Source: Rhodothermus marinus DSM 4252
GTDB lineage: Bacteria > Bacteroidota > Rhodothermia > Rhodothermales > Rhodothermaceae
DNA: 64,000 nucleotides
Assembly (NCBI RefSeq): GCF_000024845.1
Contig: NC_013501.1
Coordinates: 500,001-564,000, forward strand
Direction: 5' to 3'
The notes under the pieces are model-generated. The model saw only the letters and a list, made by a program, of their open reading frames with translations, was not told the origin of the DNA and ran no database searches. The translations under genes were made by a program, and so were the position numbers. This document shows, one piece after another, positions 2,393 to 44,166 of the stretch (position 1 is the first letter of the stretch; the number at the start of each line of letters is the position of its first letter).

Positions 2393-3103
2393 ATGCAGGA
2401 GACGCTGTCGGCGGCCGATCGGGCCAAGAAGGCCGCGGGCGAAAAGGTAGCGGCCATGGTGGAGCCGGGCATGCGGCTGGGACTGGGAACGGGCTCGACG
2501 GCTGCCTGGGCCATCCGGGCGCTGGGGCGGCGCGTACGCGAAGAAGGGCTTCGCGTGGTGGGCGTGCCCACGTCGTATGCCGCGGAGCAGCTGGCCCGTG
2601 CCGAAGGCATTCCGCTGGTGACGCTGGCGGACGTCGAGGCGCTGGACCTGGCCTTCGACGGGGCCGACGAGGTCAGTCCGGAGCTGAACCTGATCAAAGG
2701 CCGCGGGGCCGCCCACACGCGGGAAAAGGTGGTGGCTTCGCTGGCCCGGCGGTTCGTGGTGCTGGTGGACGAGTCGAAGCTGGTCGATCGGCTGGGGACG
2801 CGCTGGCCCGTGCCCATCGAGGTGTTGCCGATGGCGGCCGAGCCGGTGTTGCGACAGCTCCGACGCATGGGGGCCGAGCCCGTGCTGCGGATGGGCAAGT
2901 GCAAGGACGGGCCGGTGGTAACCGATCAGGGCTTCTGGGTGATCGACGCGCGCTTTCCCGGTGGCATCGACGATCCGCACGCGCTGGCCGTCACGCTCTC
3001 GACGATGCCCGGCGTGCTGGACCACGGCCTGTTTCTGGGACTGGCCACCGACGTGCTGGTCGGGCAGGCCGACGGCCAGGTGCGTCACATCCGTCGTCCG
3101 TAA
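2393..3103 (+). CDS. rpiA: ribose-5-phosphate isomerase A
   Basis: A 236-residue protein of normal RpiA length that interconverts ribose-5-phosphate and ribulose-5-phosphate in the non-oxidative pentose phosphate pathway. The phosphate loop GTGST lies at residues 32-36, the catalytic DGADE at 89-93, and KGRGAAHTREK at 102-112; all are diagnostic of RpiA rather than RpiB. It follows the permease gene by 3 nt. With the transketolase and transaldolase at 18.6-21.4 kb it gives a complete non-oxidative branch for pentose use, although it sits in a separate transcription unit. A repeat element and a terminator lie downstream. Confidence 0.95.
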   Translation: MQETLSAADRAKKAAGEKVAAMVEPGMRLGLGTGSTAAWAIRALGRRVREEGLRVVGVPTSYAAEQLARAEGIPLVTLADVEALDLAFDGADEVSPELNLIKGRGAAHTREKVVASLARRFVVLVDESKLVDRLGTRWPVPIEVLPMAAEPVLRQLRRMGAEPVLRMGKCKDGPVVTDQGFWVIDARFPGGIDDPHALAVTLSTMPGVLDHGLFLGLATDVLVGQADGQVRHIRRP

Positions 3104-3154
3104 TGTGGAATCGTTGATTTGCTGGTGCATGAGGGAGCCACACCCCATGTGGCG

Positions 3155-3295
3155 GACGTGATCCGGCGGGTATGATCGGGCGGATACAATGGTCCGCCCC
3201 TACGGGATAGGGAAACCTGTCAATGATCTGGTAGGGGCGCACCACAGTGTGCGCCCGTGCTTTCTCACATGCACTATGATTTTTCAGAAATCGTA
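3155..3295 (+). repeat. dispersed palindromic repeat, copy A
   Basis: An intergenic element of about 141 nt, nearly identical to an inverted copy at 21487-21625. It holds an inverted repeat pair CGCCCCTAC ... GTAGGGGCG and an overlapping hairpin GGGCGCAC ... GTGCGCCC. The side ending in ATGATTT...AAATCGTA faces the neighbouring intrinsic terminator in both copies. It has no coding capacity. Its structure resembles REP-like or miniature palindromic elements; mobility is not shown. Confidence 0.85.
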
Positions 3296-3323
3296 TAAGC
3301 GTCTATTCCCCTGACGCTATGCA

Positions 3324-3360
3324 ATAAAAAAGCGCGGTCCATCGGACCGCGCTTTTTTGT
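3324..3360. terminator. bidirectional intrinsic terminator between rpiA and tonB
   Basis: A perfect 10-bp stem AGCGCGGTCC / GGACCGCGCT (3331-3340 and 3344-3353) with loop ATC. It is preceded by an A tract and followed by a T tract, so it can end transcription from both rpiA (+) and tonB (-). Confidence 0.9.
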
Positions 3361-21449: not shown

Positions 21450-21485
21450 AAAAAAGCTCCGGCCCGGTGCCGGAGCTTTTTTGTA
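21450..21485 (+). terminator. intrinsic terminator of the arabinose operon
   Basis: A perfect 10-bp stem AAGCTCCGGC / GCCGGAGCTT (21454-21463 and 21469-21478), loop CCGGT, followed by six T and preceded by A5, so it may also work in reverse. Confidence 0.92.
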
Positions 21486-21486
21486 A

Positions 21487-21625
21487 TACGATTTCCGGGA
21501 AATCATAGTGCATGTGAGAAAGCACGGGCGCACACGGCGGTGCGCCCCTACAGATCCTTGACGTTTTCTCTATCCCGTAGGGGCGGACCCCTGTGTTCGC
21601 CCGATCATACCCGCCGGCTCACGTC
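21487..21625 (-). repeat. dispersed palindromic repeat, copy B
   Basis: An inverted copy of the element at 3155-3295. Aligned by eye as the reverse complement, almost all of about 139 nt match, including the CGCCCCTAC/GTAGGGGCG pair and the GGGCGCAC/GTGCGCCC hairpin. It abuts the ara operon terminator on the same side as copy A does at tonB. Together with the next 125 nt it fills the first part of a 472-nt gap without genes (21423-21894); the rest of the gap holds the galM promoter and operator. Confidence 0.85.
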
Positions 21626-21751
21626 AGGGCACATGTGGCGTTGCGCCATCGGAGTACCGGTGACTTGGCGATCACATATGATCCCTGTTCCCTGAGGACA
21701 CAAGAGGGCCTGCGCTACTCCGGACCGTGCGTTTTTTATGATGGGTGGGCC

Positions 21752-39685: not shown

Positions 39686-42600
39686 GGTGTCCCCGCACCC
39701 GCGGGGATAGTCCCTAAACTAATGGTAGCATGATGTGGCTGGATATGGTGTCCCCGCACCCGCGGGGATAGTCCCGTACCGGGCGCCGGTTTGTAACCCT
39801 TAATGCGGGTGTCCCCGCACCCGCGGGGATAGTCCCTATTCGTGAAGTCTCGCGCGGATCTGGCGCTCGGTGTCCCCGCACCCGCGGGGATAGTCCCGTG
39901 TACGTGAATGGATCGCACGTTATAAGGGAGGTGTCCCCGCACCCGCGGGGATAGTCCTCATTCTCGGGAAGTGCATTAGTGCAGCTAACGGGTGTCCCCG
40001 CACCCGCGGGGATAGTCCCATTTCGATCTCTTCGGGTGTGTAGATAGTTTGGGTGTCCCCGCACCCGCGGGGATAGTCCTTGCTGGAAAGCGCCGTGAAA
40101 GCGGGTAAGATCGGTGTCCCCGCACCCGCGGGGATAGTCCTTCGATGCAGATCGGCTCTTTCATCTTATTCTTGGTGTCCCCGCACCCGCGGGGATAGTC
40201 CCTGGCGAAGATAAGAAGGTGCTCTTCGCCGAGAGGTGTCCCCGCACCCGCGGGGATAGTCCCCTGGCCCGCGACTACGTGCGCGTCATGGCTGCGGTGT
40301 CCCCGCACCCGCGGGGATAGTCCCACTCCCTACCGTGTCAAGCCCTCACACTTCAGGGTGTCCCCGCACCCGCGGGGATAGTCCCTCTTCCAAAAGTTTC
40401 TATTGTGGAGCGTGTCCGGTGTCCCCGCACCCGCGGGGATAGTCCCCTCTGTGAGCCGCGAGGCCGACTCCCAAGGCCGGTGTCCCCGCACCCGCGGGGA
40501 TAGTCCCGCAAGCCCAGGCGAATCTTAAAATGGCAACGGGGTGTCCCCGCACCCGCGGGGATAGTCCCTCGCCCGCTGGAAGACGGACCGCGGCGAATAC
40601 GGTGTCCCCGCACCCGCGGGGATAGTCCTCGTGTATGAGAATGCGATTTCGTCGACGAACTGGTGTCCCCGCACCCGCGGGGATAGTCCCTGGACGAATT
40701 TGCCCCCGGCCGTTGCATGGGCGGTGTCCCCGCACCCGCGGGGATAGTCCCTCGAACGGGCCTCTGCATCCTCTATAGAAAGGGGTGTCCCCGCACCCGC
40801 GGGGATAGTCCCTTTAGGCAAAAAATTCTGGAGGTTTCTCTTTCGGTGTCCCCGCACCCGCGGGGATAGTCCCCTACACGATATGGGATGCCGTAAACAT
40901 CTACAGGTGTCCCCGCACCCGCGGGGATAGTCCCGACTCGGTCGGTCTGATTGGCCCGCCAGTCGGGGTGTCCCCGCACCCGCGGGGATAGTCCCGACTC
41001 GGTCGGTCTGATTGGCCCGCCAGTCGGGGTGTCCCCGCACCCGCGGGGATAGTCCTCGTTGCCACAGATCTGGCGGGAATGTGCGCCAGGTGTCCCCGCA
41101 CCCGCGGGGATAGTCCCTCCCTTGGAAATAGAGCTGAACGGCACAGCGGGGTGTCCCCGCACCCGCGGGGATAGTCCCACGATCCAGTTCTACCTCGATC
41201 TTCTGGCGCTGGTGTCCCCGCACCCGCGGGGATAGTCCCCCTTCCGCGTAGAAACGGATCCGGTCCAGATCGGTGTCCCCGCACCCGCGGGGATAGTCCC
41301 CGTCCGAGGTGGCGAAGGATAAAGTGATTTGGGGTGTCCCCGCACCCGCGGGGATAGTCCCGTGCTGTATTACACGAAAACCAACCGCCATCTGGTGTCC
41401 CCGCACCCGCGGGGATAGTCCCTCGACGAGCGTGACGTACTTCGTGCCGACCAGGGTGTCCCCGCACCCGCGGGGATAGTCCCGTATAGACCTTGCCGTA
41501 GTGTTTTTTGCAGAAGGTGTCCCCGCACCCGCGGGGATAGTCCTTGCACTAACGTTGCACTAACGATTGCACTTTGGGTGTCCCCGCACCCGCGGGGATA
41601 GTCCCACATCGGGCACGCCATCAGGCCGCGTGAAGCCGGTGTCCCCGCACCCGCGGGGATAGTCCCCTGGGGCTTTCCAGGCTAAAGCAGTTTAAGAAGG
41701 TGTCCCCGCACCCGCGGGGATAGTCCCTTGATGAGCTTTTCCTGGAAGCGACCGATCAGGGTGTCCCCGCACCCGCGGGGATAGTCCCTCTTTCACGCCG
41801 ATCAGGTGGACTCCCTCTTCGGTGTCCCCGCACCCGCGGGGATAGTCCCTAAACGGAGGTTTGCCATGCGCATCAACGAATGGTGTCCCCGCACCCGCGG
41901 GGATAGTCCCTCTGCACGTCCAGCGCCAGGCCCACCGTGTGCGGTGTCCCCGCACCCGCGGGGATAGTCCCCTCTCTGCTCTACCCGAAAGCTTCCGGCC
42001 CTGGGTGTCCCCGCACCCGCGGGGATAGTCCCCTTAGCGGTTGTGGAAAGGGTTGAAAACGTATGGTGTCCCCGCACCCGCGGGGATAGTCCCCGCTTCA
42101 AGCCCGACTTCGTGGGCGACGTGAAGGTGTCCCCGCACCCGCGGGGATAGTCCCGACCGTCTCCCCATCCTGCTGGGCCTTGTCGAGGTGTCCCCGCACC
42201 CGCGGGGATAGTCCTTCGATCTCCTGGTCGCCGATCCGGATGACCTGGGTGTCCCCGCACCCGCGGGGATAGTCCTTGCGCTTTGACGGACTCGGCCACC
42301 TGCACCAGGGTGTCCCCGCACCCGCGGGGATAGTCCCTTTCGGCGCAGCGCCAGCTGCTGACGGAAGTGGGTGTCCCCGCACCCGCGGGGATAGTCCCGT
42401 CACGAAGAAAGGCTCAGGAAGCAGGTCCTGGGTGCCCCCGCACCCGCGGGGATAGTCCTTCGAATGGTGTGGTGTATAGGTACTTAGACGCGGTGCCCCC
42501 GCACCCGCGGGGATAGTCCCTATGATCGACTTATGAAAAAGTTGAACATTCGGGTGCCCCCGCACCCGCGGGGATAGTCCCTGTTGATTACGTCCGCTTC

Positions 42601-44166
42601 GTAAACATCGCGCGGTGCCCCCGCACCCGCGGGGATAGTCCCAGCACCCGCTCGGTCGATCCGTCCGGGCCGCCGGTGCCCCCGCACCCGCGGGGATAGT
42701 CCCGTGATCGTGCGCTCAGCCATTCTCTTGCCGCAGGTGCCCCCGCACCCGCGGGGATAGTCCTGCCAGCGATACGCCGCAGCGACTTCGGATTGAGGTG
42801 CCCCCGCACACGCGGGGATAGTCCATGGCCGTCGATCTGGCCTACATTTACGACAAGGGTGCCCCCGCACACGCGGGGATAGTCCTCCAGACCGGCAAGC
42901 CCTGGCCGTTATCAAGCTGGTGCCCCCGCACACGCGGGGATAGTCCCGACGGCACGACCTACGTCATTCCGAACAACGAGGTGCCCCCGCACACGCGGGG
43001 ATAGTCCCTATGCGGAGCGCCTCTTGCCGGCCGAGACGGTGGTGCCCCCGCACACGCGGGGATAGTCCCTGCCGCCGGGTTTGCCGCGCCGCTCCCAGAG
43101 GGGTGCCCCCGCACACGCGGGGATAGTCCCTTCCAGGCGCATCACTTTTTCGGATAGATCCAGGTGCCCCCGCACACGCGGGGATAGTCCGTGCCTCTTC
43201 GGCCGTGTACACGGAGCGGCAGAGGTGCCCCCGCACACGCGGGGATAGTCCCGATCGTAAAGCGGTAATGCTCGAGGCGTCGCAGGTGCCCCCGCACACG
43301 CGGGGATAGTCCCTAAGGGAAAGGGCCGCCCTTCTTTCCGAAAAGGGTGCCCCCGCACACGCGGGGATAGTCCCAAAGCCATGGAGCGCCCTGTGATTCG
43401 CATGCTGGTGCCCCCGCACCCGCGGGGATAGTCCCCAGCGCCAGGTTGTGGCGCCGCGCGTAGAGATGGTGCCCCCGCACACGCGGGGATAGTCCTCCGG
43501 CCGCGATGCAAATGGTGCGCATCGTCCAGGTGCCCCCGCACACGCGGGGATAGTCCCCACGCGCTGAGGCCGTCATGGTCGAAGATGCCGGTGCCCCCGC
43601 ACACGCGGGGATAGTCCCCCGGAAGAAAAAAGAGGCCCGAAAAAAAAAGCGGTGCCCCCGCACACGCGGGGATAGTCCCGAGGAGCTGGTGCGCCAGGAG
43701 GCCGTCCTGGAGGTGCCCCCGCACACGCGGGGATAGTCCTTACGCCGCAGATCCCCTCTGATCTCTTTATTCGGTGCCCCCGCACACGCGGGGATAGTCC
43801 TCGTTTCAAAACGGGTACGATTATCTTCGTCTGGGTGCCCCCGCACACGCGGGGATAGTCCTTATCCCGTCCTCGACAAATGCCGAGGGTGGGAGGTGCC
43901 CCCGCACACGCGGGGATAGTCCCAGAAAAGCGCGGCCTATCGCTCATCGAAGAGCGGTGCCCCCGCACACGCGGGGATAGTCCTCAGATTAGGGCCACCA
44001 ATGGGGCGCTAGCTGTGGTGCCCCCGCACACGCGGGGATAGTCCTTGGTGAAAATGCGGTAAAGACTGCGTGAAGAAGGTGCCCCCGCACACGCGGGGAT
44101 AGTCCCAATACTTTCACAATACCATCGCCAGGGGCCAGGGTGCCCCCGCACACGCGGGGATAGTCC
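39686..44166 (+). CRISPR. type I-E CRISPR array, 74 repeats and 73 spacers
   Basis: Repeat starts were followed individually from 39686 to 44139; every step is exactly 61 nt, giving 74 repeats. The 28 fixed bases begin GGTG and contain the hairpin CCCCGC-ACCC-GCGGGG, ending ATAGTCC. A 29th base is nearly always C or T and probably comes from the protospacer motif, so the functional unit is 29 + 32. Three repeat types occur in order: GGTGT...CACCC (repeats 1-45), GGTGC...CACCC (46-51) and GGTGC...CACAC (52-74, except repeat 62, which is CACCC). Spacers 21 and 22 (40934-40966 and 40995-41027) are identical. The orientation matches E. coli repeats, so crRNA is read from the + strand. Confidence 0.99.

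Follow-up and report, generated by a model that had tools for sequence, protein, structure and literature searches.

A MITE-like element of Rhodothermus that encloses a REPIN-like pair of GTAG hairpins

The window analysed here is a stretch of 64,000 nucleotides from the genome of Rhodothermus marinus DSM 4252 (500001-564000 of the larger contig) and carries two copies of a repeat in opposite orientations (Table 1). Copy 1 directly follows a ribose-5-phosphate isomerase A gene (ORF 2393-3103; Pfam), the stop codon of which doubles as the TAA flanking the copy on its left, and copy 2 lies near a transaldolase-like gene. The original prediction, made from the window alone, was of a 140-bp palindromic element at 3155-3295 repeated in inverse orientation, with matching hairpins, at 21487-21625. 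The inverted match is real: the first stretch can be aligned with the reverse complement of the second, both have an identical set of internal hairpins, and when the genome was searched with 3150-3300 as query, bases 6-147 of the query matched 521486-521625 (89%, E 8.3e-47). The 140 bp are, however, only the inner part of an element of about 190 bp, as the similarity runs on to the left of 3155 and the displayed flanks of other copies have about 50 bp more in common. At full length the two window copies are identical in 158 of the 196 columns of their alignment (81%; the aligned stretches carried one flanking base, or one per side). Copy 2 is flanked (+ strand) by TAA at 21484-21486 and TGA at 21679-21681, triplets whose identity has since been lost. 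The terminators next to the two copies are host features and lie outside the element. Rfam gave nothing at gathering score in the 64-kb window, and around copy 1 sub-threshold matches only.

Table 1. Coordinates of the two copies and their neighbouring features in the window
Feature	Position	Strand	Basis or match
Left target-site duplication TAA, copy 1	3101..3103	.	sequence, TSD analysis
Element copy 1 (192 bp)	3104..3295	+	91% to family consensus 1-194 at G000:C1:503102-503296
Left end, copy 1 (family form TATGGGATCGCTGATTTACCGGTGCATG)	3104..3131	+	alignment of copies
REP 1, copy 1: GTAGGGGCGGACCATTGTATCCGCCC, GTAG inward	3178..3203	-	pattern search, fold
REP 2, copy 1: GTAGGGGCGCACCACAGTGTGCGCCC, GTAG inward	3231..3256	+	pattern search, fold
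Right end, copy 1 (family form TGCACTATGATTTCCCGGAAATCGTA)	3270..3295	+	pattern search
Right target-site duplication TAA, copy 1	3296..3298	.	sequence, TSD analysis
Bidirectional intrinsic terminator, between convergent rpiA-like and tonB-like genes	3326..3358	.	sequence, detector
Intrinsic terminator 3' of transaldolase-like gene (Pfam)	21450..21482	.	sequence, detector
Element copy 2	21487..21678	-	genome-wide copy search
REP 2, copy 2	21526..21551	-	pattern search
REP 1, copy 2	21577..21602	+	pattern search

Each window copy contains two GTAG-tagged hairpins facing inward, with 27 bp between them in copy 1. As is characteristic of REPs, the GTAG stands at the foot of a G+C-rich hairpin and the hairpins occur as inverted pairs. 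A pattern describing these hairpins matched the genome 68 times (three palindromes being counted on both strands) against no match for the reversed pattern; 58 of the 68 matches fall within places occupied by the element and ten lie outside. Folding of the 192-nt element gave z values of -4.1 (plus strand) and -4.3 (minus strand), better than all 200 shuffles on both strands, and the plus strand is predicted to fold with one REP paired to the other. The core can accordingly be described as two inward GTAG REPs that are predicted to fold together in a REPIN-like manner. Compensatory base changes were no more frequent than in shuffles, whether pairs or pair types were counted. The spacer between the two REPs occurs as two haplotypes, the rarer one in 6 of the 33 aligned copies. 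Elsewhere in the genome a truncated copy of the element is followed by solitary and degenerate GTAG hairpins in a BIME-like cluster near 629 kb (L103, G000:C1:627354-633100), and a further solitary REP (L105) has a T run behind it and looks like a terminator.

A search with a 194-nt consensus, which besides the element takes in one or two bases of the flanking triplets, placed the element at at least 40 sites in the 3,386,737-bp genome of two contigs. These 40 places were derived from 43 match rows, three of which were small pieces beside copies already counted, and the figure is a lower bound in that 40 of 69 first-look candidates were scored. By hand count 25 of them are near full length (query start 3 or lower, end 188 or higher). 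The right-end pattern adds further places, namely variants of about 300 bp at 2192926 and 2398901 and a partial one at 2503113. This copy number disposes of the alternative that the original prediction had named for two similar copies 18 kb apart, the segmental duplication of one region, which is ruled out by at least 40 places with unrelated flanks and to which we give practically no weight. At about 190 bp the element is, like a MITE, short, without room for a transposase gene and present in many dispersed copies. It is abundant in three of seven Rhodothermus genomes (the window genome, G000, together with G002 and G004). The right-end pattern (up to two mismatches) was found in 2 of the 394 genomes of a phylum sample, both of them Rhodothermus; G004, another Rhodothermus that carries it, is outside this sample. 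The family is thus MITE-like, encloses a REPIN-like core and is seen here only in Rhodothermus. Four G002 copies are mutually 97.9-99.5% identical, which points to recent activity, and two of them have clean empty sites in the window genome. The titles and abstract openings of the literature on Rhodothermus repeats or miniature elements gave no description of the element (subscription journals were mostly outside this scope).

The ends of the element are fixed, with TATGGGATCGC... on the left and TACGATTTCC... on the right, each read inward and each starting with TA. The flanking triplets were compared in 32 full-length copies, 27 of them in the window genome and 5 in G002, after four further G002 copies at the same sites had been dropped. 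TNA was present on both sides in 21 of the 32, and N was identical in 16 of these 21 (permutation p 2.5e-5) and differed between the sides in five, window copy 2 included; at least one side was without TNA in 11 of the 32. In a search for empty sites, 27 stretches of 20 kb were set against the flanks of 48 copies; a match was obtained for 21 copies, 15 of which were inspected. Six of the 15 (L118, L116, L069, L091, L084 and L076) are clean filled/empty pairs with one triplet at the empty site and two at the filled site, and these run in both directions between the window genome and G002. Another (L068) is near-clean with one extra base, at two (L061 and L090) the site is empty but the triplets have changed, and the remaining six are filled, have been rearranged or have diverged too far. 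The combination of a target-site duplication with empty sites is as expected of a MITE. In the filled/empty comparisons the moving unit is the whole element of about 190 bp, with duplication of the triplet, and not the REP pair itself, so that only the core counts as REPIN-like. The term 'REP-like' used in the original prediction is therefore apt for the hairpins that the element carries but not for the element, which is not itself a REP but is MITE-like with TNA duplications. Its further claim, of a miniature mobile family that is more than a shared terminator, is upheld by the at least 40 places, the TNA duplications and the empty sites. When the consensus ends of the 190-bp form are compared with each other as an inverted repeat they agree at 13 of 26 positions, and 221 of 5000 shuffles scored as high. 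The variants of about 300 bp carry a right-type end on both sides, and in the one compared (L150) the inverted repeats agree at 22 of 26. Judged from these sequences, the terminal inverted repeats of a MITE are clear in the variant of about 300 bp and appear weak in the 190-bp form.

Placement relative to genes and terminators was assessed for 39 of the at least 40 places (420368 was left out), with genes predicted by a simple finder based on codons, for which 20 long window ORFs served as the training set. None of the 39 copies has more than half of its length inside a predicted gene, even though coding sequence is predicted for about 90% of the control DNA (244 kb). They lie in 20 convergent, 12 tandem and 7 divergent gaps. 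The proportion in convergent gaps (20/39) compares with 11/113 among control gaps of 20 bp or more, one of the 11 being the CRISPR region of the window (Fisher p 2.2e-7), which agrees with the expectation that the element is found at the ends of genes or operons. A recount of the control without gaps that exceed 600 bp or hold a hairpin core gave 16/139 convergent (gaps of any length). A terminator was detected within 100 bp of 10 of the 39 copies, five times at the right end and five at the left. Control gaps without the core held a terminator in 4/8 convergent, 12/73 tandem and 3/25 divergent cases, and class-matched controls predict about 13 terminator-linked copies (worked out by hand), although the comparison is rough as 100 bp on each side of a copy is set against the whole control gap plus 10 bp. 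Thus, among the 39 copies, we found no association with terminators in excess of that due to the preference for convergent gaps and no constant end facing the terminator. The observation that a terminator stands beside both copies on the same side is correct for the window copies, where it is the right end, but does not hold for the family. With 10 observed against about 13 expected, the preference is for gene ends rather than terminators. The CRISPR-like array of the window (39808-44045) repeats every 61 bp, and its repeat has two variants, GGTGTCCCCGCACCCGCGGGGATAGTCCC in the first part and GGTGCCCCCGCACACGCGGGGATAGTCCC later in the array. Within 40906-41055 adjacent units do not differ from one another, even in the spacer.

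A repeat that is found between convergent genes in 20 of 39 cases and has stable predicted folds on both strands might be of benefit to the host, as a 3' element (a terminator, an mRNA stabiliser or a protein-binding site) selected at operon ends. The terminator-like appearance of the solitary REP at L105 would fit such a role, as would the pattern of substitution: across 33 copies the REP stems are substituted at 66 of 1710 positions (3.9%) compared with 418 of 4465 (9.4%) in the rest, and in a test of 191 circular placements of this pattern no other placement was as low. This extra conservation is not predicted by a plain MITE. At sites shared by two genomes, however, the parts of the element diverge alike. 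In 15 orthologous pairs (5 of 20 being excluded since their best alignment spanned under 70% of the stretch) substitutions amount to 21/776 in the REPs (2.7%), 43/1504 in the rest of the element (2.9%), 18/380 in the spacer and 158/4486 in the flanks (3.5%), the number of REP substitutions being small. Selection on the REPs at resident sites was thus not seen in these 15 pairs. As the stems are conserved between copies and not between orthologues, their conservation seems to be a legacy of the active lineage's history and not of selection at resident sites, and on this small comparison the resident copies look neutral for the host. Terminators are not in excess and sites are empty in a related genome, which also count against a benefit to the host; we consider such a role unlikely.

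The original prediction had pointed to a REP-associated transposase as something to look for, and one intact gene of this kind (RAYT) is indeed present in the genome. It encodes 223 aa (G000:C1:1262520-1263191; L106:1321-1992) and matches NCBIfam REP_Tyr_transpos with E 1.4e-18 and 67.2 bits, which is below the cut-off of 80, and Pfam Y1_Tnp with 23.6 bits (cut-off 23). A second match near 1320616 has a stop inside. A Pfam search of the window genome missed both, and the gene was located by reading around a solitary hairpin. On visual inspection, the ORF directly upstream (L106:29-1324) resembles a type I restriction specificity subunit. RAYT matches were found in three of the seven Rhodothermus genomes (G000, G001 and G002). 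In G004, which has 43 match rows for the element, RAYT was not detected, though in a draft that is 92% complete and in 230 contigs it could be missed; in G001 RAYT genes are present and the element is absent except for a 34-bp match inside a RAYT gene. The intact gene of the window genome has an in-frame GTAG palindrome, GTAGGGGCGACGCGCCGCGTCGCCCCTAC. Among the matches listed, many RAYT relatives (from Thermus, Chloroflexota, Cyanobacteria and others) have palindromes at the same place with different stems, and others, such as L257, L262, L264 and L265, have no in-frame palindrome. In-frame REPs inside RAYT genes are already known (PMC6006769).

Given this gene, the family might be a set of REPINs or BIMEs spread by the RAYT (TnpA-REP) of the same genome, in which case the outer 40-75 bp or so on each side would be conserved flanks. 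Such an origin would account for a core of two inward GTAG hairpins and for the REP stems being the part most conserved across copies, and it could accommodate the ten hairpin matches outside the element, some of them clustered near 629 kb, as well as the poor agreement between the inverted repeats of the 190-bp form. It is difficult to reconcile with fixed outer ends, 3-bp target duplications and empty sites: we know of no target duplication by IS200/IS605-type enzymes, and the duplications argue against movement by RAYT. The location of 58 of the 68 hairpin matches inside the element, the abundance of the element in the draft genome in which RAYT was not detected and the existence of longer variants that keep the ends but hold other palindromes all point the same way. 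Spread by RAYT is therefore, in our opinion, decidedly improbable, a shade more so than a benefit to the host.

The longer variants measure about 290-530 bp between recognised ends, so that the longest exceed the usual MITE size of 400 bp. They keep the ends and have other palindromes in the middle, among them CTCCCCC...GGGGGAG and CCCTCCC...GGGAGGG hairpins. The flanking triplets are identical in 8 of the 12 variants in which both ends and flanks can be read (hand count, leaving out rows L138, L149 and L152 and a spurious pairing in L133), although two of the eight are TTC and GTA and not TNA; 9 of the 12 come from G004. A second repeat, roughly CCACGAAGGCGCCAGCC...AGTGGCGTC...GGCACTCCGCTTCGCTCCGTGCC, was noticed at or near the right end of L009, L012, L017 and L019. 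In a test for mosaic copies the left part was uncorrelated with either the spacer or the right part over all 33 copies; when 8 diverged copies were dropped, the left part correlated with the spacer (0.41) and the right part was without signal, even with itself. The test leaves a single clear mosaic pair (L082/L073), along with some copies in which one end has diverged, and we treat exchange of cores between copies as a hypothesis. A bolder proposal, which we advance tentatively and would not be surprised to see fail, is that in this genus the REPs may have changed vehicle and travel as cargo of a DDE-type MITE and not by RAYT, within a modular shell that swaps its palindromic core, be it the REP pair or one of the hairpins of the longer variants, between copies and uses the REPs as joints.

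The reading that we prefer is that the element is a non-autonomous transposon of the MITE type, about 190 bp long, which makes a TNA duplication, carries the REP pair as cargo and is moved in trans by a DDE transposase whose existence we infer; we would put the probability of this at roughly 85%. A DDE-type transposase acting in trans would recognise the ends of the element and insert it into TNA, with duplication of the triplet. The 3-bp TNA duplication found here is that of IS5/IS1031 or PIF-Harbinger elements (IS1031 duplicates a TNA target), and suggests transposition in their style. The REP pair would multiply here mainly by riding the element, not through a RAYT of its own, and the clustering at convergent gene ends would reflect which insertions are tolerated. 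The stop codons TAA and TGA fit a TNA target, and copy 1 sits exactly in such a codon, the TAA that ends the rpiA-like gene, which it restores. An autonomous partner with these ends was not found with PF01609, PF13586, PF13340 or the end patterns. PF01609 gave no match in the window genome, the sole genome searched with it; PF13586 gave none there, with 7 rows in G002 and 2 in G004; and PF13340 gave one partial match on the plasmid contig of the window genome, with 8 rows in G002 and 3 in G004. Those IS5-like elements of G002 whose ends were inspected have ends that differ from those of the element. As not every described MITE has a known autonomous partner, the missing partner lowers the account of mobilisation and not the classification as a MITE. 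In G002 an IS5-like element of about 845 bp, present there in several near-identical copies, adjoins the right end of a MITE variant of about 325 bp (L277, G002:C1:1029238-1032498), and about 700 bp further on there is another left end of the MITE.

Nearest in kind is QMITE2 of Coxiella burnetii, which is described as a 150-190-bp MITE with terminal inverted and direct repeats and a GTAG REP inside, found mainly in 3' untranslated and intergenic regions and with many copies truncated (PMC5896051, PMC10969869). In those descriptions it is likewise a MITE of similar size holding a GTAG REP and mainly intergenic or 3' in location, but its direct repeats are variable and of 7-11 nt whereas the Rhodothermus element has the 3-bp TNA; it is described as holding a GTAG REP, where the Rhodothermus element has an inward-facing pair, and the hosts differ. 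REPINs or GTAG dimers are described as two opposed GTAG REPs able to form one hairpin; the arrangement with the tags on the inside corresponds to Di Nocera's TT dimer, and REPs are mostly found between unidirectional and convergent genes (PMC3116915, PMC3733652). Unlike REPINs so described, the Rhodothermus REP pair lies between additional conserved ends, and pair and ends move as one, duplicating 3 bp at the target. A looser parallel is with the Pseudomonas TIRs of degenerate REPs joined to unrelated stem-loops (PMC3733652). The RAYT of the window genome may be placed by resemblance with TnpA-REP subclass 2.4, for which REPs inside the transposase gene are described (Quentin 2018, PMC6006769): its in-frame double-foot palindrome, GTAGGGGCG...CGCCCCTAC, falls after the HUH motif and before the later part of the protein, the position given for that subclass. 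A 3-bp target duplication is also described for PIF/Harbinger; the TNA duplication is shared with PIF/Harbinger and IS5/IS1031 DDE transposons, but in our searches no transposase linked to the ends of the element was found. The element, though real, is therefore a genomic passenger of a mostly familiar kind. MITEs with a GTAG REP inside are already represented by QMITE2; what is particular to the present case is the TNA duplication, the pairing of REPs in the core and the existence of empty sites. It provides a case, with empty sites, of REP hairpins spread inside a larger target-duplicating mobile element, so that the abundance of REPs in a genome need not measure RAYT activity, and taken together with QMITE2 it makes the enclosure of REPs in transposon ends testable as a repeated evolutionary route.
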